A program made the position numbers and the translations under genes. This document shows, one piece after another, positions 26,841-47,067 of a DNA stretch of 64,000 bases (positions within the stretch are counted from its first letter, which is position 1; each line of letters begins with the position of its first letter). Source of the DNA: Primulina eburnea (taxonomy: Eukaryota; Streptophyta; Magnoliopsida; Lamiales; Gesneriaceae); the NCBI RefSeq assembly GCF_022965805.1, contig NC_133101.1:45588342-45652341 (forward strand). Direction: 5' to 3'. The notes under the pieces are model-generated. The model saw only the letters and a list, made by a program, of their open reading frames with translations. It was not told the origin of the DNA and ran no database searches.

Positions 26841-26865
26841 TAAGGACGCCACTTGGTTTGTACGA

Positions 26866-26867
<2 letters not shown>

Positions 26868-26936: not shown

Positions 26937-26942
<6 letters not shown>

Positions 26943-27889
26943 AACGTTTAATTCTCCTCAGAATTTAAAGAAAGGGTCGAGGAGGTTTACCAAAATCCTT
27001 ACGCCTTTTGCGAGAAATCCACCCGTCTGATTTTGAATATGAGTACAGTACCGAGTTCCTATCAACGTAGGCTACAACTGGACGTAAGTTTTGCTACGTT
27101 TTGATATGCTTTGAAATTATGCTGGTGTCAGAATTGAATAGGATTCATATATGATGTTCTTGTCATGTTAGACATCATAGAATCGAAGTCAGATTGAGAA
27201 ACAGACTGATTATGTAATTGTTATGATTTTTGGAATCGATTTGTCTGAGAATTCATATCAGATATGTATTGTTATTGAGATTATGACTGGTATCGACATT
27301 GGTTATGAGTTCTGGTATTATATCTGTGATGTTTGGACTGACGGGGTTATCGAGACTGTATTGCTACACCGTCGAAACATCAGTTAATTGATATTGATCA
27401 GATTCTGTAGTGATTTCGATTATATCGTGATATTGTCGATATGGATTAGATTGTATCTTGACTTGATATCGATCAGCGTATAATTCGATTTGAGTATTGA
27501 TCAGAACAGATATTGAATTGAGTTGTATATTGATATTATATATGTTCGGTATTGTTATTACCAGATTGAGAATGGACCGAGATAGAGTCGGGAATTCTTC
27601 TTCTTCTTCTTCCGAACGAGAAATAAAGGTATAAATTAATGTTGAGTTGGTATTGCACAACTCGAGTGAGGTTTGGCTTGAGTTTCCCTAAATCACATAT
27701 TTACTTTATTGCATTGACATTTGCAATGAATTGAGTGATATACTTGTTTTCTTGAAATATAGATGACAGGTGTTAGACGAGTAGTCTTATGACAGAAGTA
27801 CCTGATAGTGGTGGGATCACCACGGGCACATTGCACGATGTCATGAGATATTGTATTGGCGGAAGTGCCATAGTCTGTCAATGGATAAT

Positions 27890-28135
27890 TGGCTATCGAT
27901 GTGGATAGAATTATAGCTCCTTCTATTACTGGTGATCAGTACTGTATCGATGTGGATAGAATTATAACTTCTTCTATTACTGTTGATCGATGTGGATAGA
28001 ATCGGAGTTTCTTCTATTACTGGTGATCGATACTATACTGATGTGGATAGAAACAGAGCTTCTTCTATTACTGGTGATCGATACTATATCGACGTGGATA
28101 GAACTGGAGTCTTTTATATTACTGTTGGTCGATAT
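27890..28135. repeat. Tandem GATGTGGATAGAA repeats in I
   Basis: Five units of about 44-60 bp built on GATGTGGATAGAA, then CTTCTATTACTG and GATCGATACTAT. The resulting short ORFs (27983-28190) are repeat artefacts. Confidence 0.85.
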
Positions 28136-29288
28136 GGAATGCCAATGTCTGGAAACCGGGATCCCTAGGCTAGGACTGAGTCTAGTCTAAAACATGGAGT
28201 CACGAGTCTGAGTGACAATTATATTGATTTATATTTAATGATGTTGATTATGTTCCTGAATATGGTTCATATTCCTTGTTGTTCCTGATATTGGTACAGG
28301 TTTAGAATAGGATTTATTCTTGATATGGAATTATGTTCCGGATCAGGGTACATGTTTAGAATATGACTTATTCTTATTATTGATTCATATCATGATTTTG
28401 ATATAGGATATGATTTGCTGTCTCATGCTTTTATATTGTTTATATGATGGCATGTATACATGATTTATACTGGGATATTTATATCTCACCGGAGTTATCC
28501 GGCTGTTGTCTTGTTTGTATGTGTGCATGACAACAGGTGGGACAGGATAAGGGTCAGGAAGAGAACGAGGCTGGACTAGATAGCGTGGAGATCCGGGCTT
28601 CAGAAGCAACTTAGGATTCAGTACTGATATGTAATTAAACCTAGTTGAATTATTGTAGATCATACAATAGTTGTATGTGATATTTAATATGTAATTTGAA
28701 TTTAATTACATTACGTTCCCACTGTGTAATTTAAAAGAAAAATTTAGACCCTATTTTATAATTGATTAATTGTCCCAATAATGATTAAGGACTTGATTAG
28801 CGTCCGGGTCCCCACACCTTTTCTCCAAGAAAATATGATGAAAAAAATGATAAAGTCTGAAAAACGGCGCCCCTCTCGTGTATTAGGTCTATGGTGTAGG
28901 ATAGAGTCCATAAAAAATGAAACAAATCTTTTCAAATCTCGCGGCTCGCTAGGGCGGTCAAAAGTGTCTGCCCTAGCGAGAGGTTTTTGCAGAAAATTCC
29001 TCGGCCATGTCCCTGGGTTCGGTGGGGCGGTCAAAAGACGGTTGCGCAACAACTCCTCGGCCAGACCAACATGCTCGCTGGGGCGGTCAAAATAGAGTCC
29101 TTCTCGATGCTTTGGCAAATATTCTCCCACTTTTTGGTTCAATTCCTACAAAATAACCACCAACTACACGAGATCAGTCATATGCTACTAATGCTAGAAA
29201 AATGCTAAATTAAACTAAAACAAACTAATATGATGCATGAATGCGACTCAAAACCAACACTAAAAACACGTAAAAACGAGTCCTATCA

Positions 29289-29964
29289 ACGACGCATTAC
29301 AATAAATGAAGCAAACAATTACCAAAGAATAATGAAGTGGCAATCAACGGATACAAATATTCAAATATATCTCAAGTTACCGTTGGAAGGGAAGCTTATA
29401 AATATGACAGAAGAACGGCTGAATAAAAAGAAGAGATTACTCTATTCAAAGCTTGCTGTTACTCTGCTAAAATCTCAGCTCACTCTTACTTAATTTATTC
29501 GTAGCAGTCAAGGCTACAATTTGAGCTCACTAGCACTTTGTAATAATCGTTAAATTCGATAGCGCTAAGATCAGTTACGCACTGACAACATTTTGTAATA
29601 CTAAGAGTTTCAGCTTTTGGCAATGATAAGTCCAAACTGAAGTGGGTCAGTACAAATCTTGTATACGATCAAAGTCTTTTAGTGGAAATGCTATCATTGA
29701 GATAGAAGGGGTGACGTAGGAGTAATTGAAATCTCCGAACATCCAGAAACAATCCTTGTGTATTTTATTTCAGTTTTGTATTCTATCTTTCAGTCAGTTA
29801 CTTTCCACAACTACTTTAGTTTAACTGATTGTCATTGACCAACAAGATTCCGAGAATCAGTTTGTCACCAAACTGAACTCAAAATTCTAAAAGATCAGTT
29901 TTAATTGTGAGTGTTTATTCAACCCCCCTTCTAAACACTTTTGATACGTTAATCGATCCTATCA
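29289..29964 (+). repeat. 5' LTR of C, second part
   Basis: It resumes with the duplicated ACGAC and runs to CGATCCTATCA at 29964. A TATA box TATAAATAT lies near 29396-29404 after the conserved TTACCGTTGGAAGG block, giving the likely start of C genomic RNA about 30 bases later. The ORF at 29230-29493 is a chance frame. Confidence 0.93.
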
Positions 29965-29966
29965 AG

Positions 29967-29978
29967 TGGTATCAGAGC
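29967..29978 (+). promoter_or_regulatory. Primer-binding site of C
   Basis: TGGTATCAGAGC, two bases after the LTR, matches the 3' end of initiator tRNA-Met. Confidence 0.92.
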
Positions 29979-30024
29979 GGTTGAATCTTGTTCTTGAATA
30001 CTTTTGATCTATAAACTTGCTAGC

Positions 30025-30331
30025 ATGACTTCATTCAACAAAATTCCTATGTTCTCCAGAGAAGAATTTGATGATTGGAAAATCAGAATGCAAGCTCATT
30101 TAGCTGCACAAGATGATGACATGTGGTATGTCATAACTGATGGACCCATGAAGATTCTAAAAACAAATACAGCAGTTGCCATAACAGAAGGGGCACCACC
30201 AAGAATAGAAAAGCCCAGAGATGAATGAACAACTGAAGATAAAGAAAAGCAAATCTTGATAATGTGGCTAAAGACATTCTGCACAAAACGCTGGACAAAG
30301 TAACCTTCAGCAAAATAAAGATGTGTAAGTC
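30025..30331 (+). pseudogene. gag: Copia gag, 5' part (C)
   Basis: Gag starts at the ATG for MTSFNK (30025); an in-frame upstream ATG at 30004 is less likely because B has the same pair and the conserved protein begins at MTSF. The N-terminal gag block (FDDWKIRMQAHLAAQDDDMW) is intact. A TGG-to-TGA change stops it at 30226, and a frameshift follows. B is inserted at 30332. The reading continues at 42194, where removing B and one target copy restores the MCKSAKEIW junction. Confidence 0.9.
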
Positions 30332-31301
30332 TGATAGGATCGGTTGTCGTAACAAGAGTGTTTAGAAAGGGGGGTTGAATAAACACTTACACTTAAAATT
30401 GTTCTTTATTAATATTTGAGTTCAGTTTAGTGACAAACTGAATCTCGGAATCTTGTTGGTCAATAAAAATCAGTTAAACTAGAGTAGTTGCGGAAAGTAA
30501 CTGACTGAAAGATAGAATCCGAAATTGAAAGAAATATGCGAGAGTTGTTTCTGGATGTTCGGATAATTTAATTACTCCTACGTCACCCCTTCTATCACAA
30601 GGATAGGATATTCACTAAAAGACTTTGATCAAGTACAACACTTGTACAGATCCACTTCAGTTTGGACTTACAACTGCCAAAACTGAAACTCTTAGTTCTA
30701 CACAATATTCTCAGTACGTAACTGATATTAGCACAATTGAATCTAACAGCTTTTAGAGAGTGCTAATAAGCTCAGATTGTAGCCTTGATTTCTACGAGTA
30801 ATTCAAATGAAAGTGAGCTAAGATTTTGACAGAGTAACAACAAGCTTAAGATTGAGTGATTGTCTCTGTTTTCTTCTGCTGTTCTTCAGTCATATTTATA
30901 CTTCTCTTTCAACGGTAACTTTGATATGCATTTGAATTCTAGTATCCGTTGAATGCCACTTCATCATTTGTTGGGCAATGTTCTCTTCATTGATTGTCAT
31001 TCGGCGTCTTAATTGCAGTAGCCGAAGTACGTTGTTCTATGCCGTAATGATTGAGGTGCGGCTTTCCATATTCATTTGCTGTTTACTATGTCCTTTTTTC
31101 GGTTGAATGTTCTTTCTCGAGAAGCATTCAGTTGAGATATGTTTTGACTGAAACTTATGCAGCTGAGTATATTAACTGATCGGTTTCCAACGGATCAGTT
31201 TTCTTCATTTGTTCAGCTAGTTTCAGTTGTTAAATATTCAGTTGTTTCATAATTTAGTTAGTTTCTTCAGTTTGTCAAACTCCGAAATTTGGTTTCCAAC
31301 A
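30332..31301 (-). repeat. 3' LTR of B
   Basis: Plus strand TGATAGGATC to GGTTTCCAACA. The TATA box (minus strand TATAAATATG) is at about 30891-30900. Nearly identical to 41218-42188. Confidence 0.95.
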
Positions 31302-31315
31302 ATTTCCCCCTTTTT
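31302..31315 (-). promoter_or_regulatory. Polypurine tract of B
   Basis: Minus strand AAAAAGGGGGAAAT, directly next to the 3' LTR. Confidence 0.88.
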
Positions 31316-31472
31316 GGTGTTTGATAAAACTAAGCATATATTAACTGAAGGATTGAACTCTTATAGACTGCTTCTTAACAAAAACTGTCTCAAAATAAAC
31401 TGTTAAACTGCTAACTGCTCCTCAATGCTTTTTCTGCTGCTAACTGCTCTTCAATGATTTTTCTGAGTCATA

Positions 31473-34208
31473 CTAAAATTCCCCCTTTTTGTCAAACTGA
31501 GCCATGTGGAGAGATATTTGTCGAACTTCAGTAGATAAAATGCCAACATTGGCTGAAATACTGGAGATGGCAGTAAGAACTGAGGTTTGCAGTGAGTCTA
31601 TTTTGTTTGCAACAGATGTTTCTAGTCTTTCAACTCGTTGGTTGATTACATCTTGAGCAACAAAAAGAGCAGCAGTTGTGGCTTTGTTCGGCTTGTGTTC
31701 TATGGCAACTGAGAGTTCAGTTACAACTTCTTGAATATTCTTCAGCTTTGCAAAAACAAAATCTTCGGATCCATTCAGCTTTACAGAATGATAGTATTGG
31801 GTTGACTGAATGGATTTGATGGCATCCATTATTTGATTCATATTTGTCTTGATGGTGTTGATTTCTTCGAACAATGCTTCTGAATTTGAGATTTCAGGAG
31901 ACATGACTCCTATATCTTCCTGATGTGGCACTTGTTCTGGTGGAGTGAAAATTATCATAGTGCGATCAACTGTCTCTTCTTGACCTTGAGATGAAGAAGG
32001 TTGCTTCTGAGCATCAGAAACACTTTGTTCTAGAATAACAGGGTTATCTGTGGTAACTGCTCTCGGAGAATCATGGGCTTGTACTTCTGTTTGATCAACA
32101 GCTGAAACTTGTGGGGGTTCTTCAGTTTGAAGATTTCCAACATTAGGCAACTGCTCTTCCACAGATTTAGTGAGTGTTTCCTCTTGGTTCTGAGTGAGCA
32201 CTTCAGTTTGCTCTTCAGTTTCAGAGGTTACTTGCTGAACTGTTTCTGGAGCAACAAAAATTTGAGCTTGTTCTGCATTATCAGAGAATTGAACATATTC
32301 TTCAGCAATAAAAGTTTGAACTGGGTCTTCAGATGTAACTAGAACGTCTTGTTCTGTTTGTTCAGTTAGAGGATCAACTGATTCAAGATTATGTGCTTCA
32401 GTTTGAGCTTCCTGAGCAACTGACTGAATGATTTCATCGATATTGGCGAAGGTAAGTTCAGTCTCAGAGTACAGATGTTGATCCCCGGCTGTTGTTTGTG
32501 GAACCTTCTGGACTGATTTTTCAGCAATGAGTTCTTTAGAAGATTCATTCTGCTGAGGTGATGAAGATTTGTATTCCTCTGTTCTTGAAGATTTTTCTGG
32601 AAGAACATGTTCTTGATCTTGTTCCCAAAACCTTATTTCCCTCTGTAGACTACTAAGATCTGCATCCAGTTGAGTGAAAACAGCTCTATCTTGATATGCA
32701 GTTGGCCCTGTGTGGTTGTAGTTTTCTTTCAACTGTCTAACCATCTTAGTCAGTTGATTAGCCCGTATTTGATCAAAGAAATACTGTCTCCTTTCCAGTG
32801 CTTGAATAATGGTAGCAGCTTTAACTACCCTCAAAACTATCTTTTCTAGTTTAATAAACATCTTCATTTGGGATTTGTGCTTCAGTTTCTTGGCAAAAAT
32901 TTCGGTCCTGAAGCTTTTCCAACGGTCAAAAGCTGTGAGTTTTGATGTGGCAAATGTATTTACCTCTTCCCAAATTAGATCGATATGAGTTTGAATGGAG
33001 TGAGATGGCCTTGGCTCCTCCTCAAGCTTGCCTTTTCCCTTCTCTGTGGTTAGAATATGAGGAATTTGTAGGCCAGATTTGGTAGACTCCGCTGGTTCCT
33101 TCAATGTGACGCCTTTTGGTCTAGCCTGAGGTAAAATAGTGGGTTGATTTACACGAGTGAAGGGAGCTTTTACTCTTGTGGGTATCTTTTCAGTTGGAAC
33201 TGTATCATCAGAAGGGATGACCTGCAATGGAATAGCCTGAATAGGCTTTTCAGCAGCTGACTGAGACAGTTTCTCAGTAAAGGTCGGTTCCACTGCTGGT
33301 ATTGGTTTGGTTCTTTGTGTCCTTGGTTTCTTGATAAGTTTGGGAGATGGAGTTGTCTCAGAATCTGATTAACTGAGAATCAGTTTTCGCTTTGTAGCCT
33401 TCAGTTGGGCCAGCGTCTTGGCTTTCTTGACTGATTTAGGAGCAGCTTGCTGCATCCCAATCTCCTTCTTGACTTTTACGAATTGTTTAGGCGAGAGATC
33501 CATCTTGGTTTTTGGTGGCAATATATTCTTGGCAGTGAATATCTTAAATTTTGAAAAATTTTCGGCATTGTTAGCTACCAGTCCTTTAAGTTTCAGAATA
33601 TAACTGATTGGAATAGCAAACCCCCTGGACTGTTTTGTTGATAGAAGCATATTCTTTAGAATGCTGAAAATAATGTACCTCCAGTTGGCTTTCTTCTCAC
33701 CCATGATGATTGTCATCACTTGGAATTTCTCAAGAGTGAGAGCTGCATATGAGCCAGCTTTAGCTAAAATTCCCTTTGCTACAATATCAGCCAACAATTG
33801 AATTTCTGGTTTCAGTTCTTTCTTTGTGTCAGAGACTTTGATTTTCCGCCCATCAGCAGATAATGAAGATTGCATTTGCTCAATATCGAATGTTTTAACT
33901 TCAGAAAAACTGACAAATCCATCCGTTGGCAAGGACAACATTTCTCCAAAGTTTTCTTCGGATAAGATCAGCAACTTATCATTGATAGTGACAGCGATGT
34001 TTCCTTCAACAGTGACATACCCTTTCATATAGAATTCATTCACTTCCTTCGAGTATATTTCTTGTGAAGATTGTCCCAAGAACATTCTTTGCCCAGCAGA
34101 TTCAATGTTCAGAAAGACATTTTTTATATCAGCTTCTTGAATTGATAAAACTGAGTCAAAATCGATTGCCATGGCATTCATCACGTGAGCAGGGATCTGA
34201 TTAGCCAT
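31473..34208 (-). pseudogene. Long sense accessory ORF of Copia B (single stop)
   Basis: One 911-codon frame from the ATG at 34208, broken only by TAA at 33369-33371 (after KRKLILS). The N-terminal region (about residues 28-215) holds NEFYMKG, GEMLSLPTDGF, LLADIVAKGILAKAG, LTLEKF and SRGFAIPISYIL. A basic stretch with KKPRTQR follows, then a conserved helical segment (IQTHIDLIWEEV, ALERRQYFFDQIRA), a long Gln/Glu/Thr-rich region, and a C-terminal coiled coil ending FDKKGEF. There is no membrane segment. Part of the N-terminal pattern matches the D third ORF. Unknown function; a structural or nucleic-acid-linked role is only a guess. Confidence 0.85.
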
Positions 34209-34788
34209 TTCGAAAGGTAAGATGATCTGAAATTCGTAGAAAATAATGCTTTGGAAATTAATATGCTCTTAGAACTGATTGTATGCGTTAAGGAAAAGAA
34301 CTGAATTGAAGCGGGTATAGTACATTTGAGCGCGACTGTTCAAATTCCGGACACGTGTCAGTTCATGAAAATTTTGAATAAAAAATATATGTACGTGTGC
34401 TGTAATCGTGTGTATAAAGATTAGCGGTTTTAGAGTAAGCCGCGTCGTCAATCTGCAGTCACGTCAATTGATTTAGAATATAATAAATTTTAATTAGTTA
34501 ACGTATGTGAGAATATTTATAAACAATCCAACTGAACGATCAGTTGGGAAACTGATTCATTTTAGTTGAGAAGTTACAAACAACTGTCTTCTCAGTTAAC
34601 CTTTTGAAATTAATATTCCCCCTAAATTTGTGCATAAAATAATTAAAGTAGTGCTACAAAATAATTTTAAGAGTGCGAGAAGTTATTGGTCTTGCTGAAC
34701 TATTGACGACTCTTCAGCTTTCTTGATATTCCCCTATAAATAGAAATATCTCAGTTAGTTTTAGACATATCATTCAAAATATTCAAAA
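34209..34788. promoter_or_regulatory. Divergent promoter region between long ORF and ORFa (B)
   Basis: A 580-bp region between two divergent ATGs. The ORFa side has TATAAATAG at 34735-34743 and GACTCTTCAGCTT at 34708-34720. A G-box, GGACACGTGTCA, lies at 34349-34360 toward the long ORF. The same layout occurs in A and C. Confidence 0.6.
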
Positions 34789-35184
34789 ATGTCTGACACG
34801 GGTGACTCAAGTCTTTCTCCCTTTTCTGTAGAGGCCAGGAAGGCTGAGATTGAAGACGAAGTCTTCTATGAAAGTCTGCATTATTGGGAGCGATTGCAGG
34901 AGCTTGAGCTCTTGTACAATTCTGGGGAGGCCACCACTCCTGAATTGGTGGCAGAACTGAATCAAGTGCGAGAACACTTGAATATTGCTGTGTGGGTGGA
35001 CGTCTTCAAGGATGGTCACATGTATCAGCTGATGCTCCGCAAGGATATGAAGATCTTGAGGCGCATAGCTCATTCTCACAGCTTTCTCATGACTGCTCCT
35101 TCTTTATCTGTTTGGCTGAAATTTTGGATAATTGTTGTGGAGAATGTGTATGATGATGTAATCCAGACAAACATTTATAAGTAA
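34789..35184 (+). CDS. Antisense accessory protein ORFa of Copia B
   Basis: An intact 131-codon ORF opposite to element B. It begins MSDTGDSS, then a helical region with HYWERLQELELLYNSGEATTP, QLMLRKDMKILRRIAHSHSF and WLKFWIIVVEN. It aligns over its whole length with ORFa of A and C and more weakly with ORFb, sharing the W..L..L, SG....P, MLWKE/MLRKD and terminal Trp positions. Soluble and helical by inspection; no known motif. Its own TATA box is 46-54 bp upstream. Function unknown. Confidence 0.7.
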   Translation: MSDTGDSSLSPFSVEARKAEIEDEVFYESLHYWERLQELELLYNSGEATTPELVAELNQVREHLNIAVWVDVFKDGHMYQLMLRKDMKILRRIAHSHSFLMTAPSLSVWLKFWIIVVENVYDDVIQTNIYK

Positions 35185-35487
35185 TGAAATATTTATCTGA
35201 TTTTAACTCTTTTTTTCTGCAAGTGATATGTTTCATCAGTTGTGACATAAACTGATGACAAACTAACTGTCATTTGTTGATCATGAACTGGGACTATTTA
35301 AACAATTATTAACAGAATTCAAACTGGTGTCAGTTGAATATTAACAACTGACAACTTAAAGTCCTTGGTAAATGTGAAAGACACATTAAATGTCGTGAGA
35401 CTCTTCAGCTTCTCCAACGTCATTTTCCTATAAATAAGATGATAGTGATAAAAATGTGATGCAATATCAGTTCAAAAATATTTCAAT
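35185..35487 (+). promoter_or_regulatory. Promoter region of ORFb (B)
   Basis: Contains GACTCTTCAGCTT (35399-35411) and TATAAATAAG (35429-35438), the same two elements in the same order as upstream of ORFa. The start position of ORFb is 50-59 bp beyond the TATA box. Confidence 0.6.
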
Positions 35488-35910
35488 ATTTCTGATTCTG
35501 ATGCATGCAGCAGCACTCATGTTCATGTTTCTGAGCAGTCAGCCCCTCGTTTAACAATCATCAAGAAAAATATGGAGAAATATGTCTTTCAGAAGGTGAT
35601 TTCAACTTGGGAAAAGATTCATGAGTTGAAAAGGGTGAGTGACAGTGGTGCTATTCCTACTCGTGCTCAGGAGGCAAGAGCACTGAAGTACCTTGAACGT
35701 TTTGAAGTTAGACATGTTAGGAATTTGGTTAAAGACAAATGTCTTTTGGAGGCGATGCTATGGAAGGAGTGGCATGTTGTTGATAACATTTCGAAATCTA
35801 GGGCATTTGCTAGAGTTCGAATTTATGAGTTAAATGATTGGGTTAGGGCGTGGCTAGATTCAGTTGATGCCATGATATCTTCTGTAAAATGGGAACGTTG
35901 GTATTCTTAA
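35488..35910 (+). pseudogene. Antisense accessory ORFb of Copia B (start codon lost)
   Basis: Homologous over its length to ORFb of C (47148-47579). The codon aligned with the C start is ATT (35488-35490), and the frame is open from there to the stop at 35910 (140 sense codons). The first remaining ATG, at 35572, would give a 112-residue N-truncated protein. Conserved blocks are STWEKIHELKRVSDSGAIP, RALKYLERFEVRHVRNLV, LLEAMLWKEWHVV and KWERWYS. It ends 78 bp from the end of pol, which converges on it. Confidence 0.65.
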
Positions 35911-35988
35911 TGAAGTGTTAATTTTAATTTGTTGTGTTCTTCTTTTCTTCGTATAATTCTGTTAGTGAAGCAATATTACTAATAATTT

Positions 35989-38781
35989 CTAAGATAAATC
36001 AATTAAACCAAGAATATTTCGAAAATAGGAAAACTTAGCCTCGGGTAATGGTTTTGTGAAGATGTCAGCTGCTTGCTGTTCTGTTGAAATATATTCTAGT
36101 CGAATATCCTTCTTTAACGCATGATCCCTGATGAAGTGATGCCTGACATCTATATGCTTGGTCCTTGAGTGAAGAACTGGATTGTAGGTGATGGCAATTG
36201 TGCTGGTATTATCACAAAATATGGGCGATTCAGTTGATGTTACTCCATAATCCTTCAGTTGTTGCTGAATCCAGATCAGTTGTGCACAACAGCTACCAGC
36301 AGCAAGATATTCTGCTTCTGTTGTTGAGGTAGCTATGGATGTCTGCTTCTTGCTGAACCAAGAGATTAGTCTGTCTCCTAAGAACTGACAAGATCCACTT
36401 GTACTTTTGCGATCAAGCTTACATCCTGCATAATCTGCATCTGAGTATCAAACTAAATTGAAGGTGGAGTCTTTGGAATACCATAGCCCAACATTTTGCG
36501 TGTCCTTAAGATATCTCAGAATTCTTTTAGCAGCTGAGAAATGTGATTGCTTAGGATTTGCTTGAAATCTAGCACACATACAGACAGCAAAAACAATATC
36601 AGGACGACTGGCTGTTAGGTATAACAATGAACCTATTAACCCTCTATATAATGTCGCCTCCACTGATATTCCCCCTTCGTCAGTGTCTAGTTTAACTGAT
36701 GAGCTCATGGGAGTTGTTGCAGCTGAACATGATTCCATACCAAATTTCTTTAGCAACTCCTTTGTATATTTTGTTTGACTAATGAATATACCAGTTTCCT
36801 GTTGCTTTACTTGCAGTCCAAGAAAGAATGTCAGTTCACCCATCATGCTCCTTTCAAACTTATCCTGCATTAACTTAGCAAACTTTTCGCACAATTTGGG
36901 GTTAGTTGATCCAAAAATTATATCATCAACATAAATTTGAACTAGTAGAATATGATTATTTTTAGTAAATTTAAACAAGGTCTTATCAACTGATCCGACT
37001 GTAAAGTCATGATCAGTTAGGAATTTTGAAAGAGTTTCATACCAAGCCCTGGGAGCTTGTTTAAGACCATATAATGCTTTGTTCAAATAGTATACATGAT
37101 CAGGAAGTTTGTGGTTTACAAAACCTGGAGGTTGTTCGACATATACTTCTTCTTTTAACTGACCATTTAGGAATGCACTCTTCACATCCATCTGGTAAAC
37201 TTTGAAGTTTTTGTGAGATGCATAAGCAAGAAATATTCTGATTGCTTCCAATCTTGCAACTAGAGCATACGTCTCATCGTAGTCAATTCCTTCTTCTTGC
37301 CTATATCCTTGTGCTACTAGTCTTTCTTTGTTGCGTATAACTGAACCGTCCTCATTTAGTTTATTTCTGTACACCCATTTTGTACCTATAATGGTTTTAG
37401 AAGTTGGTCTTGGAACTAAGTTCCAGACGTTATTGTGAGTGAACTGATTCAGCTCTTCTTTCATAGCATTTACCCAGTTAGGATCAGCAAGAGCTTCATC
37501 AGTTTTCTTTGGTTCCAGTTGTGAAACAAAGGCTGAATGAATAAATAAGTTTAACATTTGATTGCGAGTTCTTACTGGATCAGATGGATTCCCTATTACC
37601 AGATGTGGTGCATGTGATTTTCTCCATCTGTACTCTGCATTTGTTTCATCAGCAACTGCTTCAGTTGGTAACTGAGTGCAATTTTCAGCTTCAGTTGATG
37701 CCTCGTCAGCTGGTATTTGAATGTTATCAATTTGCTTTAATAACTGATTGTCATCAAGGACTTCCTGCTCATTTAATTTATCCAATATTTCTGGTTCTGG
37801 TGTTTGAAAGATGTCCTGATTGTTATGACTTTCTTCTTTGTCATCATCTTCCAAACTGATATCTGTAAATCGATCAGCTAGCTCAACTTGATCAGTTGGC
37901 TTATCAGTTAATACAGTTTCATCAAAATCAACATCCGTAGATTCTTCAACATTTAAAGTTTTCTTATTAAAGACTCTATAAGCTATACTAACTGATGAAT
38001 ATCCAAGGAATATTCCTTCTGCAGATTTGGCATCAAATGCTTTTAAGTAATTTTTGCCATTATCATGAATAAAGCATCTACAGTCGAATATTTTGAAATA
38101 AGTGATTATAATTTTTCTTCCATGCCAGATCTCATATGTTGTTTTCATATAATTCTTATTAATCATTGATCTGTTCTGAGTATAACATTCAGTGTTTACT
38201 GCCTCTGCCCAAAATCTTTGAGAAATGCCAGAATCAGCAAGCATTGTACTAGCAGCTTCTTTAAGGGTCCGATTTCTTCTCTCAGCTACACCGTTTTGCT
38301 GAGGAATTCTTGCTGCTGAGAGCTCATGCTTGATTCCAGCATTTTCTAGAAAACTTGAATGTGTTTGATTGATGAATTCAGTTCCTCGATCAGATCTGAT
38401 TCGATCAATCCCAACTGATTTTTCGTTTAAAAGTCTTTTGAAGAGTTTAATCAGTTGTGCAGCCGTATGGTCTTTGGATTTGAGAAATATAACCCAAGTA
38501 AATCTTGAAAAATCATCTACAACCATCAAGGTTTTTTTCATTCCCCCTAATCTCATGACTGGTATTGGACCGAAGAGATCCATGTGCAATAGTTCTAAGC
38601 ATCGTGATGAAGATTTACAACCCTTGTTTTTGAAAGAAGATTGTACTTGTTTTCCATACTGACATGCTGAGCAAAGTTTTTCTTTTGAAAAATTTATTTT
38701 GAGCAAACCAGTTACAAGTTCATGTTTACTCAGAAAAGCAATGGATTTAAAGTTTAAATGATTTAACCTTTTATGCCACAA
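35989..38781 (-). pseudogene. pol: Copia integrase, RT and RNase H (B)
   Basis: A 777-codon open frame (38781-36448), then one TGA at 36448-36450 (Gly in other copies) and open again to the pol stop at 35989. In order: GAG-pre-integrase HKRLNHLN and CSACQYGKQ; integrase DDE residues D68 (HMDLFGP), D131 (RSDRGTEF) and E167 (GVAERRNR); acidic linker; RT about 450-690 with intact YVDD at 617-620; RNase H (YSDADYAGC, STTEAEYLAA, FCDNTSTI, FTKPLP). Integrase and RT catalytic residues are complete. The RT signature is SIRE-like. Confidence 0.93.
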
Positions 38782-39243
38782 CCAGTTTTGAGATGATTTT
38801 GAAGCAATGAAGCAGACTGGTGCATGAGGCTATTCATTCCAACTGACTTTATATGTGTTTCCACATCGTTTGCCAGTTAGTATGATTTCATCAGTTGATG
38901 TTTTAACTAAGCATGAGTTTTTATCAAATTGTACCGAGAATCCAATGTCGCATAACTGACTGATACTAATCAAGTTATACTTCAGATTCTCTACTAATAA
39001 AACATCTTTAATAGTAAAGTTACCATGGATAATCTTACCCTTACCCACGGTTTTACCTTTGGAATTATTTCCGAAACTGATGTTTGGACCACTATATTTG
39101 ATCAGTTGAGATAGCATACTTGCATCTCTTGTCATATGTCGTGAGCAACCGCTGTCCAAATACCATATTGAATTTTTATTTGTACCTGTTACCTGCAAGC
39201 ACACACATAATTTGATTTGGTACCCATATCTATTTGGGTCCAA
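38782..39243 (-). pseudogene. pol: Copia protease (B)
   Basis: The aspartic protease active site DSGCSRHM is present (YLDSGCSRHMTRDASML), followed by SFGNNSKGKTVGKG and LISISQLCD, the normal Copia protease order. A TAG at 38830-38832 separates it from the integrase block. Confidence 0.9.
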
Positions 39244-40864
39244 AGCTTATTAGTCCCTTTGGAACCCACACTTGGATTAGTCTAACTGAATTTCCAGTCG
39301 ATGTATTCCAAATGGTGTTCCTCGGTTTTTGTGTGCTTGGTGAATAGTGTACAGATGATACAGTATGTATTTTAGTTTGGTTCAACTGATTGTTTAGTCT
39401 GTATCTTTTCTGGACTGGTTTGCAGTTATAATAATTTAAATAATTCTTGCTAACTCTTTTTGATGAGTGATTTTCTGAGTCAGTAGAGATTTTTGGACTG
39501 TAACCAACTCCATGTCTTCTGGCCTTATACATATTCTTAATAGGTTTTTCATTCAGTTTGCTGGGCTCAAATTTCTTTCTACTGTTGATCTGACAAATTG
39601 AATGTACTTCCCTTTGTTCATTGTCACCTTTGGTTGAGTATCATTTGAAAACGTTTCTCCTTGATTACTGAACCCTAAACCAGTTTTATCAGAAACTGAT
39701 TTTTGTGAGTTATGCATTTCATTCAATGCAGTAGACGACTTATTCCAAGATTGATTGAGTTCAGTCTATTTTGAATTTTCAAGGATCAATTTCTGGATCA
39801 GTGACCGATCTTTCTTTCTCTCTACTTTTAGCTCAACAATTTCCCTTTTTAGACTCAACCTATCAACTGATTCATCAGTTTTGGTTTTGTTGTCCATGGG
39901 ATCATTTTGCTTTGACTTTATTTCCTCAAATGATGATGCAAGTTTCTGGTACTCATTTACCATTTCATGCAATGTTAAAATGAGTTCTTCTCGTGTAAAA
40001 TTAGTTGAACTAAAATCAAATACCTGTTGACTTGTAGATTTTGCTTCAGCGTCATTTCCCGTTAGACATTTGACGTCCTCTTCATCACTTGAGCTATATG
40101 AGCTTTCTGGTTCTGATTCGTCACTATCAGTTTCTGCCCATTTGGATTTGTTCGTGTTTCTTTCTGTAGGTTTTCTTATCATCTCTGGGTCTTCTCTTAT
40201 GCTCATATGGTTTCTTCCCTCTGTCAGTTGATCCTTGACTGTCCTTTTCAGGTTTAGGACAGTCAGCAATGTAATGACCTGTTTTGCCACAATTGTAGCA
40301 AGCATTTGTTTCTTCTTTGGAATTATTTCTCTGGTATTGCTTTTGAAGGTTTCCTTGGTTCTTTCTCATGAACCTCCCAAACGTTTTGATGAATAATGAC
40401 ATAGCATCATTGCTTAACTGATCAGCAGATCTCTCAACTGAACTAGTCGGTTCAGTTCTGACAGCTGCTAAAGCAGTTGTAGTTGTAGGAGTAGATGGTT
40501 CTCCTTCTCTGTTTTGCAATTCAAATTCATAAACTTTTAAATCAGCAAATAGTTCATGAAGTTCGATCTGGTTCAAGTCTTTAGATTCTCTCATAGCCAT
40601 AGTTTTGACATCCCATTCCTTTGGAAGACCTCGCATCACTTTTAGTGTTACCTCTTTGTTGGTATACACTTTTCCGAGTGCATTTAATTCATTCACAATA
40701 CTGCTTACCCTTTCATCATACTCGTTCATTGATTCTCCAACCTTCATTTTGATATTGTCAATTTTCTGGACAGCAACTGAGAGTTTATTTTCTTTTGTTT
40801 GGTCATTTCCTTCATATAACTGAATCAACTTCTCCCAAATTTCTTTTGCTGTTTTGCACATCTT
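39244..40864 (-). pseudogene. gag: Copia gag C-terminal half (B)
   Basis: Contains the gag core (AKEIWEKLIQLYEGNDQTKENKL, MNEYDERVSSIVNEL, LPKEWDVKTMAMRES) and the zinc knuckle CYNCGKTGHYIADC (about 40261-40302), then an acidic Ser-rich tail with a coiled region. Frame changes occur near 40885 (relative to the gag start), near 40150 and downstream toward the protease, so gag is not translated as one piece. Confidence 0.87.
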
Positions 40865-41157
40865 TATTTTGTTGAAGGTTGCTTTGTCCACTTTTTGTAT
40901 AGAGTATCTTTGGCCACATTGTCAAGATTAGCTTTCCTTTTGTCTTCAGTTGTCCACTCTTCTCTGGGCTTTTGAATTCTCTGTGGTGCCCCTTCAGTTA
41001 TGGCAATTGTTGTGTTTGCTTTTAGAATATTCATGGGTCCGTCTGTTATGACATACCACATATCATCATCTTGTGCAGCTAAGTGAGCCTGCATTCTGAT
41101 TTTCCAATCATCGAAATCTTCTTTTGATAACATAGGAATTTTATTGAATGAAGTCAT
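40865..41157 (-). pseudogene. gag: Copia gag N-terminal part (B)
   Basis: Starts at the ATG for MTSFNK (41157) with the conserved FDDWKIRMQAHLAAQDDDMW block. A one-base change near 40885 puts it out of frame with the rest of gag. Confidence 0.9.
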
Positions 41158-41203
41158 GCTAGCAGATTTATAGATCAAAAGTATTCAAGAACAAGATTCA
41201 ACT

Positions 41204-41215
41204 GCTCTGATACCA
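41204..41215 (-). promoter_or_regulatory. Primer-binding site of B
   Basis: Minus strand TGGTATCAGAGC, two bases inside the 5' LTR: initiator tRNA-Met type. Confidence 0.92.
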
Positions 41216-41217
41216 CT

Positions 41218-42188
41218 TGATAGGATTGGTTGTCGTAACAATGAGTGTTTAGAAGGGTGGGTTGAATAAACACTTACACTTAAAATTGTTCTTTATCAAT
41301 ATTTGAGTTCAGTTTAGTGACAAACCGAATCTCGGAATCTTGTTGGTCAATAACAATCAGTTAAACTAGAGTAGTTGCGGAAAGTAACTGACTGAAAGAT
41401 AGAATACAAAATTGAAAGAAATATGCAAGAGTTGTTTCTGGATGTTCGGAGAATTTAATTACTCCTACGTCACCCCTTCTATCACAAGGATAGGATATTC
41501 ACTAAAAGACTTTTATCGAGTACAACACTTGTACAGACCCACTTCAGTTTGGACTTACAACTGCCAAAACTGAAACTCTTAGTTCTACACAATATTCTCA
41601 GTACGTAACTGATATTAGTACAATTGAATCTAACAGCTTTTAGAGAGTGCTAATAAGCTCAGATTGTAGCCTTGATTGCTACGAGTAATTCAAATGAAAG
41701 TGAGCTAAGATTTTGACAGAGTAACAGTAAGCTTAAGATTGAGTGATTGTCTCTGTTTTCTTCTGCTGTTCTTCAGTCATATTTATACTTCTCTTTCAAC
41801 TGTAAATTTGATATGCATTTGAATTCTAGTATCCGTTGAATGCCACTTCATCATTTGTTGGGCAATGTTCTCTTCATTGATTGTCATTCGGCGTCTTAAT
41901 TGCAGTATCCGAAGTACGTTGTTCTATGCTGTAATGATTGAGGTGCGGCTTTCCATATTCATTTGATGTTTACTATGTCCTTTTGTCGGTTGAATGTTCT
42001 TTCCTGAAAAGCATTCAGTTGAGATATGTTTTGAATGAAACTTATGCAGCTGAGTATATTAACTGATCGGTTTCCAACTGATCAGTTTTCTTCATTTGTT
42101 CAGCTGGTTTCAGTTGTTAAATATTCAGTTGTTTCATAATTCAGTTTGTTTCTTCAGTTTGTCAAACTCCGGAATTTGGTTTCCAACA
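41218..42188 (-). repeat. 5' LTR of B
   Basis: 971 bp, partner of 30332-31301. Its right edge GGTTTCCAACA abuts the duplicated AAGTC of the C gag. Confidence 0.95.
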
Positions 42189-42800
42189 AAGTCAGCCAAA
42201 GAAATTTGGGAAAAGCTGATTCAGCTGTGTGAAGGAAATGATCAAACCAAAGAAAATAAACTTTTTGTTGCTATTCAAAAGTTTGATAACATCAAAATGA
42301 AAGCAGGAGAATCAATGCACGAGTATGATGAAAGAGTAAGCAGTATCATCAATGAGTTAAATGCCCTTGGAAAAGTGTATACCAACAAAGAGATTGCACT
42401 GAAGGTAATGACAGGTCTTCCCAAGGAATGGGATGTCAAGACCATGGCAATGAGGGAGTCCAACGATCTGAACCAGATTGAACTTCATGATTTTTTTGCT
42501 GATTTAAAGGCTTATGAATTTGAGCTGCAGACCAGAGAAGGAGAAACATCTACCCCTGCTGCCACAACTGCTCTAGCTGCTGCCAGAACAGAACCAATCA
42601 GTTCAGTCGAGAAATCTGCTGATCAGTTGAGCAGTGATGCTATGTCATTGTTCATAAAAAAATTTGGAAGGTTCATGAGAAAGAATCAAGGAAACTTCCA
42701 GAAGCCATACCAAAGGAACAGCTCCAAAGATGAATCAAATGACTGCTACAACTGTGGAAAATCAGGTACACTTTATTACTGATTGTCCTAAATCCAAGAA
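42189..42800 (+). pseudogene. gag: Copia gag, 3' part (C)
   Basis: Continues gag of C after B: AKEIWEKLIQLCEGNDQ, MHEYDERVSSIINEL, LPKEWDVKTMAMRES. The zinc knuckle is broken after CYNCGKSG by one extra base near 42770, giving a premature stop at 42782. The LTR-derived N-terminus of the longer frame from 42096 is not part of gag. Confidence 0.9.
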
Positions 42801-43873
42801 GGACAGTCAGGCTAAACTGATAGAAGAAAGAAATCATATGAGCACAAAAAAGACCCAAGGAAGATAAGAAGTCCTTCAGAAAGAAACATGAGGTACTCTT
42901 AGCTGAAGAAAACAAATCTAAATGGGTAGAAACTGACAGTGAGGAGTCAGAACCAGAAAGCTCATGCAGCTCTAGTGATGATGAGGAAGTCAAGTGCTTG
43001 ATGGCTAATAATGTAGAAGAAGAATCATCTAGCCAACAGATATTTGATTTCAGCTCCACTGATTTCACACGAGAAGAACTCATTCTAACACTACATGACA
43101 TGGTAAATGAGTATCAAAAGCTTGCATCATCATTTGAAAAAATCAAAGCAAAGCAAACTGATCCCACAGAAAATAAAACCAAAACTGATGAATCAGTTGA
43201 TGGGTTGAGTCTAAAAAGGGAAATTGCTTAGTTAAAAGCAGAGAGAGACAAAAATCAGTCATTAATCCAGAAGTTGTTTCTTGAAAACTCAAAACAGACT
43301 GAGCTCATTCAGTCTTGGAACAAGTCATCTACTGCACTGAATGAGATGCAGAATTCACAAAAATCAGTTTCTGATAAAACTGGTTTAGGGTTCAACACTC
43401 AAGGAGAAACGTATCCAAATGATACTCAACCAAAGCTAAAAATAGACAAAGGGAAATACATTCACTTTGTCAAAGCAACAGTGGTACAAGAACAAATTGA
43501 GCCCAGTAAACTGATTGAGCAACCTACTAAGAATATGAGCAAGGCTAGAAGATATGGGATTGGTTATAGTCAAAAATTCTCAACTGATTCACAAAGTCAG
43601 ACATCAAAGAGGTTTCACAAGAACTATTCGAATAGCCATTTCAATTAATATAACTGCAAGCCAGTTCAGAAGAGATATAGACTGAACAATCAGTTGAATA
43701 AAGCTAAAACACATAATGTATCATCTGTACACCAAGCACACAAAAGCCAAGAAAAACCATTTGGAATACAGTTACCGGAAAGTCTGTTAGACTAATCCAA
43801 GTGTGGGTTCCTAAGAGACTAATCAGCTCAGGACCCAAATAGATGTGGGTACCAAGTTATATTATGTGTGTGA
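42801..43873 (+). pseudogene. gag: Gag tail and linker before protease (C)
   Basis: Acidic, Ser-rich tail collinear with B 39250-40150, with open pieces at 42998-43231 (FDFSSTDFTREELILTLHDM) and 43274-43648. Stops and shifts separate the pieces. No catalytic domain. Confidence 0.7.
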
Positions 43874-45121
43874 TTGCAGGTAACAGGTACAAACAAGAAC
43901 TCAATATGGTATTTGGACAGTGGATGTTCGCGACATATGATAGGAGATGCAAGTGCGTTATCTCAACTGATCAAATACAGTGGTCCAAACATCAGTTTCG
44001 GGGACAATTCCAAAGGTAGAACTATGGGTAAGGGTAAGCTTATCCATGGTAACTTTACTTTTAAAGATGTTCTATTAGTAGAAAACCTGAAGTATAACTT
44101 GATTAGCATCAGTCAGTTATGCGACAGTGGATTCTCAGTACAATTTGACAAAAACTCATGTTCAGTCAAAACTTCAACTGATGAAATCATACTAACTGGC
44201 AAACGTTGTGGAAACACATATAAAGTCAGTTGGAATGATCAAAATTATGCACCAGTTTGTTTTATTGCTTCCAAATCATCTAAAAACTGGTTGTGGCATA
44301 AGAGACTAAATCATTTAAACTTCAAATCCATTGCCTATCTGAGTAAACATGAACTTGTAACTGGTTTGCCCAAAATAGACTTTTCAAAAGAAAAACTTTG
44401 CTCAGCATGTCAGTATGGTTAACAACTACGATTCTCTTTTAAAAACAAGGGCGGTATATCTTCATCTCGATGCTTAGAACTGTTGCACATGGATCTCTTT
44501 GGTCCTTTACCATTCATGAGCTTAGGAGGAATGAAATACACCTTGGAAGTCGTAGATGATTTTTCAAGATTTACTTGAGTTATTTTTCTCAAATCTAAAG
44601 ATCATACTGCTTCGCAACTAATAAAGCTCTTCAAAAGACTTTTAAATGAAAAATCAGTTGGAATTGATCGAATCAGATCTGATCGAGTAACTGAATTCAT
44701 CCATCAAACTCTTTCAAATTTCCTGGAAAATACTGGAATTAAGCATGAGCTCTCAGCAGCCAGAACCCCTTAGCAAAATGGTGTAGCTGGGAGAAGAAAT
44801 CGGACTCTTAAAGAAGCTGCTAGAACAATGCTTGCTGATTCTGGTATTTCTCAAAGATTTTGGGCAGAGGCAGTAAATACTGCGTGTAACACTCAAAACA
44901 GATCAATGATTAATAAACATCATATAAAAACACCATATGAGATCTGGCATGGAAGAAAAAGTATAATTAATTATTTCAAAATATTCGGCTGCATATGTTT
45001 TATTCTTGATAGTGGTAAAAATTATTTAAAAGCGTTTGATGCTAAATCTGCAGAAGGAATATTTCTTGGATACTCATCAGTTAGTATAGCTTATAGAGTC
45101 TTCAACAAAAAAAACCATTGA
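43874..45121 (+). pseudogene. pol: Copia protease and integrase (C)
   Basis: The protease has DSGCSRHM. The GAG-pre-integrase block HKRLNHLN ends in a TAA (44420-44422) at CSACQYG. The integrase core follows with further stops (near 44576 and 44771). Two key positions are altered: RSDRGTEF reads RSDRVTEF, and the catalytic Glu of GVAERRNR is Gly. The last open piece (44828-45121) ends in a frameshift in a run of A. Confidence 0.9.
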
Positions 45122-47067
45122 TGTTGAAGAATCTGCTCATGTCTGAACTAACTGATAAGCCAACTATTCAATTTGAGCTAGTTGATCAATTTACAGATAT
45201 CAGTTTGGAAGATGATGACACAAATGAATGTCATGACAATCAAAACATACTTCAAACACCTGAACCAGAAGTACTAGACCAATCAGATGTGCAAGAATTC
45301 GTTGCTGATGATCAGTTGATAGAGCATAATGAGAACATTCAAATATCATTTGATGAAGCACCAACTGAGACTGAAAACTGTGTTCAGTTACCAACTGAAG
45401 AAATTGCTGATACAACAAATATTGGGTATAGATGGAGAAAATCACATCCGCCTGAACTGGTAATAGGAAATTCATCTGATCCAGTAAGAACTCGCAATCA
45501 AATGCTAAATTTATTTATCTATTCAGCTTTTGTTTCACAACTAGAAACAAAGAAAACTGATGAAGCTCTTGCTGATCCTAACTGGGTAAATGCAATGCAA
45601 GAAGAGCTAAATCAGTTCACTTATAACAATGTCTGGAACTTAGTTCCAAGACCAATTTCAAAAACTATTATAGGTACAAAATGGGTGTACAGGAACAAGC
45701 TGAATGAAGATGGTTCAGTTGTGCGCAATAAAGCGAGACTGGTAGCACAAGGATATAGGCAAGAAGAAGGAATTGATTATGATGAAACATATGCACCAGT
45801 TGCAAGACTGGAAGCTATCAGAATATTCCTTGCATATGCTTCATTCAAGAACTTCAAAGTCTATCAGATGGATGTAAAGAGTGCATTTCTAAATGGTCAA
45901 ATACAAGAGGAAGTATATGTTGAACAACCCCCAGGTTTTGTAAATCACAACTTTCCTGATTATGTATATCATTTGAACAAAGCCTTATATGGTCTTAAAC
46001 AAGCTCCCAGAGCTTGGTATGAAACTCTTTCAAAATTTCTAACTGATCATGATTTTTCTGTTGGATTAGTTGATAAGACCTTGTTCAAATTTGCTAAGAA
46101 TGATCACATTTTATTAGTTCAAATTTATGTTGATGATATCATATTTGGGTCAACTAATCCCAAATTATGCGAAAATTTTGCTAAGATAATGCAGGATAAG
46201 TTTGATATGAGCGTGATGGGTGAAATGACATTCTTTATTGGACTGCAAGTGAAGCAACTGGAGACTGGTATATTCATCAGACAAACTAAATATACAAAAG
46301 AGCTGCTGAAGAAATTTGGCATGGAATCATTTCAGCTGCAAATACTCTCATGAGCTCATCAGTAAAATTGGACACTGATCAAGGGGGAATATCAGTTGAT
46401 GCGACATTATATCGAGGTTTAAAAGGTTCATTGTTGTACTTAACTGCCAGTCATCCTGATATTGTATTTTCTGTCTGTATGTGTGCTAGATTTCAAGCAA
46501 ATCCTAAGCAATCACATTTCTCAGCTGCTAAAAGAATTTTGAAGTATCTTAAGGGTACACAAAATGTTGGGTTATCGTATTATAAAGACTCTACTTTCAA
46601 TTTAGTTGGATATTCAGATACAGATTATGCAGGATGTAAGCGTGATCGTAAAAGTACAAGTGGGTCTTGTCAGTTTCTAGGAGATATACTGATCTTTTGG
46701 TTCAGCAAAAAGCAGACATCCATAGCTACCTCAACAACTGAAGCAGAATACCTTGCTGCTGGTAGTTGTGCACAACTGATCTGGATCCAGCAACAACTAA
46801 GAGATTATGGAGTAATTACGAATGAATCACCCATATTTTGTGACAATAGGAGCACAATTGCTATCACCTATAATCCAGTTGTTCATTCAAGGACCAAGCA
46901 TATAGATGTCAGGCACCACTTCATTAGATATCATGCTTTGAAGAAGGACATTAGACTGGAGTATATTTCAACTGAGCAACAAGCAGCTGACATCTTCACC
47001 AAACCATTACCCCGAGACTAAGTTTTCTTACTTTCGCAATATTCTTGGTTTAATTGACTTATCTTAA
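45122..47067 (+). pseudogene. pol: Copia RT and RNase H (C)
   Basis: An RT frame of 411 codons (45118-46353) with all RT blocks and intact YVDD (IYVDDIIFG, near 46126-46145). One lost base near 46331 shifts it, and RNase H continues in 46350-47021 (GYSDTDYAGC, STTEAEYLAA, FCDNRSTI, FTKPLP) with a final shift before the pol end near 47067. Confidence 0.92.

Follow-up and report, generated by a model that had tools for sequence, protein, structure and literature searches.

Accessory antisense genes and TCAGTT sites in a Copia family

An abundant Copia retrotransposon family of Primulina eburnea carries a pair of antisense genes with TATA boxes and is studded with the hexamer TCAGTT over its whole length, and this combination suggests that the element may encode its own regulatory system. 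The reading we favor, with a probability of roughly 0.55, is that of a SIRE-like Copia in which selected accessory genes with their own TATA boxes would encode regulators, and TCAGTT would be a dispersed recognition site. The duplication of the antisense genes (ORFa and ORFb), the TATA box before each of them and the element-wide TCAGTT are new beyond the preliminary description of this DNA.

Organization of the element

The window, which is the whole stretch of DNA analyzed in this study, comprises 64,000 nt of P. eburnea (NC_133101.1 45,588,342-45,652,341; GCF_022965805.1). Copy B is a Ty1/copia-type LTR retrotransposon (30332..42188, minus strand), recognized from its LTR pair, target site duplication (TSD), TG..CA ends and Pfam matches (Retrotran_gag_2, rve and RVT_2), and sits nested inside the gag of its sister, copy C (15356..52792, plus strand). 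The 5' LTR (41218..42188, minus) and 3' LTR (30332..31301, minus) of B are 96.6% identical, and the direct repeat AAGTC flanks the copy at 30327-30331 and 42189-42193. The 5' LTR is directly followed, in the sense direction, by AG and TGGTATCAGAGC, a candidate primer binding site that we take to be of the tRNA-Met type. The gag region (40127..41184, minus) occupies two overlapping frames, and pol with INT, RT and RNaseH (35989..38829, minus) lies in two frames read stop to stop. At the opposite end the terminal polypurine tract AGGGGGAA is followed by AT (31302..31311, minus) and then by the TG of the 3' LTR; an internal AGGGGGAA (34616..34623, minus) lies between ORFa and the long sense ORF and has a counterpart in C at 48478.

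The preliminary description had proposed that B and C share one plan after pol, and the ORF coordinates follow the same order in both: antisense ORFb, antisense ORFa, and a sense ORF of ~910 codons. In B, the ORFb frame is found at 35452..35910 (plus) and ORFa, of 131 aa, at 34789..35184 (plus); in C, ORFb of 143 aa is found at 47148..47579 (minus) and ORFa of 132 aa at 47908..48306 (minus). The long sense ORF of B (31473..34208, minus) has ~911 codons and one in-frame stop, which is private to B and shared by none of the 20 related genomic copies (0/20), and that of C (about 48869..51601, plus) lies in several frames. Copy A (1..7885, plus), cut by the window edge, was said to follow the same plan without ORFb, and ORF mapping agrees: ORFa (3113..3523, minus) and the long ORF are present, ORFb is absent, and the sequence continues from the end of pol into the spacer. 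Preservation of the long ORF in fragment E (54616..56984, plus) holds for a piece, its 3' part next to an LTR-like piece, and not for the whole ORF.

The copies within the window are damaged. Pol and the long ORF of C are broken by frameshifts; its 5' LTR is in two pieces (15356-15703 and 29289-29964) with other elements in between, and its 3' LTR spans 51772-52792. The start codon of ORFb is gone in B and present in the 19 other B-like copies that were located, one of the 20 not being located.

Paralogy and selection of ORFa and ORFb

ORFa and ORFb align by hhalign over 118 columns (probability 97.4, E 1e-11). Judged by this alignment, they are shown to be paralogues, that is a duplicated gene, and their origin as unrelated captures was rejected. 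All 20 ORFb loci examined (20/20) have an adjoining ORFa relative. The predicted ORFa fold, computed with 6 sequences, consists of helices only and has fair confidence (pLDDT 85.6, pTM 0.76). One short ENA contig holds an ORFa relative with 69% identity, open from Met across 132 aa, and a second short ENA contig holds an ORFb relative with 82% identity across 102 aa. No informative match to ORFa or ORFb came from the Pfam, PDB sequence and fold searches, and 0 of 101 stretches were confirmed in the viral contigs scanned.

Genome searches returned 4521 first-look candidates for ORFa and 4832 for ORFb. By hand counts, 116 of 150 scored places for ORFa and 57 of 150 for ORFb were stop-free within the match; these places are not a random sample, because they are the matches most similar to the query and some are partial. 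In-frame stops occur at 0.21 per 100 codons for ORFa (71 aligned sequences) and 0.51 for ORFb (70), versus 2.0-12.4 in the other five frames of the same alignments, which include some places twice. Between B and C, dN/dS is 0.20 for ORFa (Fisher p 4e-11) and 0.53 for ORFb (Fisher p 0.007), and the net comparison between groups gives 0.19 (ORFa) and either 0.49 or 0.22 (ORFb). Chance openness of the two frames was rejected on the stop rates relative to the other frames and on dN/dS. The substitution patterns show that the ORFa protein evolved under purifying selection, clearly so, and show the same more weakly for the ORFb protein.

A dN/dS near 1, named beforehand as the result that would speak against functional genes, was not seen (ORFa ~0.2, ORFb 0.2-0.5), and other family copies with these ORFs open were found, as the stop-free places above attest. 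The view of them as working genes in active copies would apply to past active copies, those of the window being damaged.

These results also bear on whether ORFa and ORFb act mainly as antisense RNA, which would arise from internal TATA boxes, pair with the genomic RNA and tune or silence it, with the proteins being incidental. For antisense aORFs, the text available of PMC7264820 discusses both a role through dsRNA and the transcription of retrotransposons in antisense. However, protein-level selection, conservation of frame and length, a predicted fold and a distant relative open over its full length would be unexpected under an RNA-only function, which we regard as highly improbable.

The long sense ORF

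The first part of the long ORF has a dN/dS of ~0.1, and this comparison clearly shows that it evolved under purifying selection. It is basic, with a pI of 9.6 and basic clusters, and is related to Dorcoceras 'dystroglycan-like' proteins. A membrane-type envelope role of the long ORF was set aside on hydropathy, as the highest 19-residue values are 1.12 in its first part and 1.37 in its second, compared with 1.42 for pol. The predicted structure of the long-ORF domain reached a pLDDT of 32 and was not used.

PF20167 (Transposase_32, putative plant transposon protein) weakly matched two of four members of the long-ORF domain (best E 0.0023), none above the curated cut-off, and was unmatched by the window's own long-ORF protein. 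A neighbouring gypsy element carries an ORF with a strong PF20167 match. The hhalign comparison of the long ORF with that ORF was not significant (E 0.046, probability 1.2), and homology to PF20167 was set aside as weak.

TATA boxes of the antisense genes

The TATA box CTATAAATA lies before ORFb of B at 35428..35436 (plus) and before ORFa of B at 34734..34742 (plus), and the corresponding boxes of C lie at 47618..47626 (minus) for ORFb and 48361..48369 (minus) for ORFa. On both strands of the 64-kb window CTATAAATA occurs six times, four times at the ORFa and ORFb starts and twice in LTRs (A and E). Upstream regions were sought for 21 copies in each of four sets (ORFa or ORFb, B-like or C-like). 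The exact CTATAAATA was found upstream of ORFb in 19 of 20 B-like and 18 of 21 C-like located regions, and upstream of ORFa in 17 of 20 and 15 of 19, respectively. The search patterns were fitted by 17 of 20 B-like and 17 of 20 C-like loci for ORFb and by 16 of 20 and 12 of 20 for ORFa, and in these it stands 42-63 nt before the ATG. These counts show TATA boxes and start codons of ORFa and ORFb to be kept in most copies examined.

Element-wide excess of TCAGTT

Copy B contains 107 TCAGTT/AACTGA sites across its whole length (30332..42188, both strands), where 13.7 are expected (z 25). In each of A, B, C and E no other 6-mer is as over-represented as TCAGTT, which reaches 7-9/kb there; in arbitrary genomic DNA (12 stretches, 24 kb) it occurs at 0.88/kb and ranks 480 of 2014 6-mers. 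The LTR of B holds 13 sites versus 1.2 expected, and the spacer upstream of ORFb reaches 17/kb. The strands are balanced in B (CAGTT 73, AACTG 71), the spacing along the element is random, and tandem repeats are short arrays only, some containing TCAGTT. Protection from C-to-T change at the TCAGTT sites was looked for and none was found. A second, weaker 6-mer excess in B is that of GAATAT/ATATTC (38 vs 8.7).

Within the gag, pol and long-ORF frames the excess goes beyond codon usage: compared with synonymous shuffles, B has 19 versus 4.7 sites in pol, 6 versus 0.9 in gag, 4 versus 0.9 in RNaseH and 21 versus 8.3 in the long ORF, counts that were reached by at most 2 of 1000 shuffles. ORFa and ORFb are without TCAGTT excess. 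Retention of the sites is 0.594 from B to C versus 0.341 for matched 6-mers (0/2000), and 0.679 versus 0.316 (0/2000) from C to B. At the level of sequence comparison, TCAGTT is thus shown to saturate the whole element and to be preserved beyond coding demands.

A mutation or replication bias of the family could produce such an excess as a by-product without binding, and the second excess and the random spacing would suit it. Yet a single 6-mer stands at z 25 in B and is retained at about double the rate of matched 6-mers, and a general bias does not predict that two ORFs of one molecule, ORFa and ORFb, would be free of the excess; we consider this explanation highly improbable. Alternatively, the long ORF and the antisense pair are selected genes and TCAGTT is the site of a host MYB-type factor exploited for expression, the accessory proteins serving, for example, RNA or particle functions. 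TCAGTTR/YAACTGA corresponds to the MYB core site, and both the LTR of B and the spacer that precedes ORFb are rich in the sites. Transcription factor sites are, however, expected near promoters, while TCAGTT is also found within the gag, pol and long-ORF frames, at the synonymous level, and its spacing is random over the element. Recognition by a host factor is a possible reading that we hold to be doubtful.

A putative regulatory system

Selection and architecture are shown by the comparisons above; transcription, binding and function of the accessory genes we infer. In the favored reading of an element with its own regulators, the small antisense gene was duplicated between pol and the 3' LTR of a high-copy SIRE-like Copia family, with the long sense gene running divergently from the pair. 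ORFa and ORFb would have promoters of their own and be transcribed independently of the LTR, and their small helical products, together with that of the long ORF, may be regulators of the element itself. TCAGTT would most likely be read by the long-ORF product through its basic first part, ORFa and ORFb acting as partners, or else ORFa and ORFb might read the site directly. Recognition would take place on integrated copies or on cDNA, along which the sites are spread, and could keep the chromatin of the element open or expressed, by analogy with VANC for VANDAL. Tentatively, the accessory proteins might thus form a sequence-specific anti-silencing or activation system of the element, for which ~100 TCAGTT sites, introduced throughout the element and even at synonymous positions in gag and pol, would mark the full length of every copy as 'self'.

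Comparison with known systems

Of SIRE elements, 74% are reported to carry a sense ORF downstream of pol and before the 3' LTR (PMC6317226). Our element is alike in its Copia pol and post-pol sense ORF, with the long ORF in A, B and C and part of it in E; Pfam RVT_2, rve and Retrotran_gag_2 place it in Ty1/copia only, and 'SIRE-like' denotes likeness. The SIRE attachment site is AT/TG, and the published octamer AGGGGGAG begins 10 bp before the 3' LTR (PMC2829016). Copy B matches the octamer position and AT/TG, its octamer differing in the last base; C has AT/TG at 51772 and an octamer two bases off, and AGGGGGAG itself was found in none of A, B or C as searched. Several copies of the polypurine tract octamer in the linker, rare elsewhere, are a further SIRE trait: AGGGGGAA of B lies at 34623, 31486 and 31311 after pol and also at 38548 and 36676 in pol; in C it stands at 48478 in the post-pol region and at 46382 within pol, and in A at 6735. 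The SIRE descriptions, as far as the accessible text of PMC2829016 and PMC6317226 goes, are without an antisense gene pair or TCAGTT saturation.

Among plant retrotransposons, Ty3/gypsy elements are already on record with antisense accessory genes, and their Tat-type antisense ORFs between pol and the 3' LTR include Grande gene23, with a reported internal promoter, RIRE2 and Retand TRP28 (PMC7264820). ORFa and ORFb share their orientation and location. In contrast to Tat/Retand, the element here has RVT_2 and a copia gag rather than a Ty3/gypsy pol, and carries two paralogous genes of 131-143 codons plus a long sense gene; PF04195 (Transposase_28) was unmatched by ORFa and ORFb of B and by 16 family sequences at E <= 1. 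No antisense gene in a Copia element was found among the matches listed in the literature searches, which agrees, short of proof, with the statement in the preliminary description that no such Copia is known. That a Copia family, too, has a duplicated antisense gene with TATA boxes and protein-level selection suggests recurrent invention of such genes. Surveys have used ORF cut-offs of 250 codons (PMC6317226) and 600 bp (PMC11963269); ORFa and ORFb fall below both, and more such genes may therefore have been missed.

The VANDAL/VANC system of Arabidopsis likewise combines a short enriched motif (YAGTATTAY for VANC21, AGTTGTCC/AGTTGTAC for VANC6; PMC5735166) with accessory genes beside the enzyme. 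VANDAL is a DNA transposon whereas the family of copy B is a retrotransposon, and the likeness is one of analogy only. VANDAL motifs are non-coding and often in tandem repeats, whereas TCAGTT is dispersed and lies inside coding sequences too. Should a protein of the element indeed read the TCAGTT saturation as a recognition code, the family would offer a parallel to VANC anti-silencing among retrotransposons, one whose site code is written into coding DNA.

Structure of the Copia copies and their surroundings

Copy B (30332-42188, minus strand) was delimited by self-comparison as an LTR retrotransposon whose LTR pair, 96.6% identical, has TG..CA termini. It is flanked by one AAGTC repeat on each side and inserted within the gag of copy C, and copia gag, integrase core and RVT_2 domains were detected in it with Pfam. 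The 3' LTR of copy C was placed by self-comparison at 51772-52792; its 5' LTR lies in two pieces, 15356-15703 and 29289-29964 (93.1% and 95.6% identical to the 3' LTR), with other elements in the gap. A Ty3/gypsy element with LTRs about 99% identical (15706-26514) sits in this splitting stretch. Its sense ORF after pol (18618-19442, minus strand) matches PF20167 Transposase_32 (E 8e-39). At 19691-20052, just upstream of this ORF, units of ~72 bp built around a palindromic GGCGGTCA..TGACCGCC core form a tandem array. A plant snoRNA snoR71 match (24874-24980, plus strand), scoring at the gathering score of 40 bits, is found on the strand opposite to the gypsy gag ORF. Together with the Dorcoceras relatives of the long ORF described below, it marks the window as plant DNA. 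Copy A (1-7885) is truncated by the window edge, and fragment E covers 54616-56984.

In copy B, pol is followed by two small genes on the plus strand, antisense to the element, ORFb (35452-35910) and ORFa (34789-35184), and then by the long sense ORF (34208-31473), which is divergent from ORFa. The common order after pol proposed for B and C in the preliminary description was found in both copies, and comparison of the window copies also bore out that A has no ORFb. Two lesions are private to B: the in-frame stop in its long ORF, present in 0/20 relatives, and the loss of the ORFb start, where 19/19 other located B-like copies carry ATG. The spacer separating the long ORF from ORFa has one CACGTG, which we take to be of G-box type, in each of A (3590-4150), B (34209-34735) and C (48370-48915). 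It lies within a conserved ACACGTGTCC stretch; it was counted as 2 per spacer in the shuffle test because the palindrome is scored on both strands, and 24-37 of 500 shuffles reach 2.

All 15 families with an opposite-strand ORF2 in one paper are Ty3/gypsy; the extra ORF in the two Copia families that have one is set against these as not opposite in orientation (PMC4093653). Among the papers listed in literature searches, judged by title and abstract start and with supplements and subscription papers outside the scope, none concerned antisense genes in a Copia element; this does not prove absence, but agrees with the earlier statement that no description was known of a Copia with an antisense gene pair and a long sense gene.

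Paralogy, abundance and predicted proteins

The two antisense genes are duplicates of one another: 118 columns of ORFa and ORFb align in a profile comparison (E 1e-11), and nine columns are invariant across 16 sequences of both kinds. The host assembly searched amounts to 812 Mb over 1224 contigs. In 20/20 loci, taken at intervals of roughly seven rows down the ORFb match list with some of these rows skipped, ORFb is adjoined by an ORFa relative, whether its frame is open or broken. A first look gave 4521 candidates for the ORFa protein and 4832 for ORFb; 150 of each were scored and all match. Other open family copies do exist, with 116/150 ORFa and 57/150 ORFb places stop-free by hand count. 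The protein collection yielded two relatives only, each on a short ENA contig: P0001, which is ORFb-like, and P0005, which is ORFa-like (132 aa, 69% identity to B and to C). A natural fusion without ORFa was seen at locus L041 (G000:C4:7356438-7361325), where the ORFa upstream region joins directly onto the ORFb TATA region and ORFb.

The ORFa protein is predicted to be all-helical (pLDDT 85.6, pTM 0.76), and no known fold stands out on fold comparison. At pI 9.6 and with KR clusters, the first part of the long ORF is basic, and it lacks any membrane-like stretch; its only relatives found are three Dorcoceras hygrometricum 'dystroglycan-like' proteins, 33-37% identical. The second part is acidic (pI 5.0). 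We infer that the product is a nuclear protein.

Selection on the accessory genes

Between B and C, NG86 dN/dS is 0.12 for gag, 0.16 for INT, 0.18 for RT and 0.07 for RNaseH; between B and A it is 0.26 and 0.10 for RT and 0.09 for RNaseH. For the antisense genes, regarded as working genes in the preliminary description, the ratios came out lower than a value near 1: 0.20 (B-C), 0.54 (B-A) and 0.35 (C-A) for ORFa, and 0.53 (B-C) for ORFb. The long ORF gave 0.12, 0.08 and 0.15 in its first part and 0.24 and 0.24 in its second. Fisher p for B-C is 4e-11 for ORFa, 0.007 for ORFb and 3e-35 for the first part of the long ORF.

When all pairs of dS 0.15-1.5 are taken together, ORFa has a median of 0.233 in its true frame (0.38-1.87 in the other frames) and ORFb one of 0.516 (0.57-1.70 in the other frames). 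Loci L009-L038 and L059-L078 were picked by protein similarity, so that dN within groups is lowered; net dN/dS between the B-like and C-like groups is 0.193 for ORFa and 0.494 for ORFb. The L077/L078 group gave 0.221 against B-like for ORFb, and 0.75 (ORFa) and 0.52 (ORFb) against C-like. Individual copies that are damaged or divergent (L057, A) yield ratios as high as 0.98. L039-L058 are 20 of 39 other places, picked by long-ORF DNA similarity. Pieces from tblastn below 33% identity were removed from the alignments because ORFa and ORFb would otherwise mix. Stop-free sequences number 56/71 for ORFa (45/60 distinct) and 40/70 for ORFb (33/58 distinct), reference excluded. The dS between B and C is uneven along the element (gag 1.1, pol 0.4-0.5, ORFb 0.5, ORFa 0.9, long ORF 1.7), as if modules had been exchanged through recombination between families.

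Antisense TATA boxes

In the proposed model, LTR-driven sense RNA would encode gag-pol and also serve as the genome, and ORFa and ORFb would be driven by separate antisense promoters. The box CTATAAATA lies upstream of both genes in the antisense reading direction, in copy C 47 nt from the ORFb start and 63 nt from the ORFa start. Among upstream regions sought in 21 copies per group, the exact box was found for ORFb in 19/20 located B-like (L057 not located) and 18/21 C-like regions, and for ORFa in 17/20 B-like (L041 not located) and 15/19 C-like regions (L069 and L076 not located). In the loci fitting the patterns, its distance from the ORFb start is 59-61 nt in B-like (17/20) and 42-50 nt in C-like (17/20), and from the ORFa start 55-56 nt in B-like (16/20) and 52-63 nt in C-like (12/20). 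Four of the six occurrences in the 64 kb, both strands counted, are the boxes of B and C; the remaining two are in the LTRs of A (7261) and E (56445), ~340-346 bases past the likely LTR starts. ORFa of A has a variant box. The C-like ORFb box is kept better than most 9-base windows (5% equal it), and conservation of the C-like ORFa box is unremarkable (20.5% equal it). The B-like leader between the ORFb box and start contains out-of-frame ATGs, and these make the simplest interpretation of the ORFb start less secure.

A dispersed TCAGTT motif

The best clue to function is the TCAGTT sites. Together with AACTGA, the motif is in excess family-wide over the dinucleotide expectation: 107 vs 13.7 in B, 71 vs 11.0 in C (42189-52116), 50 vs 7.3 in A (1-7187) and 14 vs 2.4 in E, whose LTR-like piece has 8 vs 0.8. 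It is the top-ranked 6-mer in A, B, C and E, and ranks 343/2047 at 7900-29288 of the window and 480/2014 in 12 arbitrarily chosen genomic stretches of 2 kb. The motif density is 0.88/kb in those stretches, compared with 7.1-9.3/kb in the family. The extended form is (A/T)TCAGTT(G/A). GAATAT/ATATTC shows a second, weaker excess, with 38 occurrences in B (8.7 expected) and 19 in A (5.0 expected).

Synonymous codon shuffling does not explain the excess in gag, pol, RNaseH and long ORF of B, RT of C, RT of A and a piece of the C long ORF (<=3/1000 shuffles each). It is weaker in C INT, C gag, an A long-ORF piece and C ORFb (47-91/1000 shuffles equal the count), and by the same shuffling none was found in ORFa and ORFb of B, ORFa of C or three ORFs of other elements. 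Between B and C, the sites are retained at 0.59-0.68, compared with 0.32-0.34 for nearby 6-mers matched in G+C and phase (0/2000 permutations in each direction). Six smaller A-C tests all go in the same direction, two at 5% (53 and 81 of 2000) and four not (184-819). The aligned part of B and C contains 66 B and 56 C sites with 38 common, so the sites turn over too.

Spacing along the element is random, and gag, pol, the linker, the long ORF and the LTR all carry sites. They are equal on both strands, and the motif thus resembles a signal in double-stranded DNA more than one in RNA. We propose, by analogy with VANC, that an element-encoded protein would bind the motif with loss of methylation, and give this about one chance in three. 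The main rival explanation is that a host MYB reads TCAGTT. In the neighbouring gypsy element, a dispersed motif of this kind was not found and only the tandem array is present. VANDAL transposons encode a protein, VANC, that is reported to bind a short motif, with loss of methylation (PMC5735166; PMC10398659). With its short motif and transposon-encoded protein, VANDAL/VANC is the nearest described arrangement known to us.
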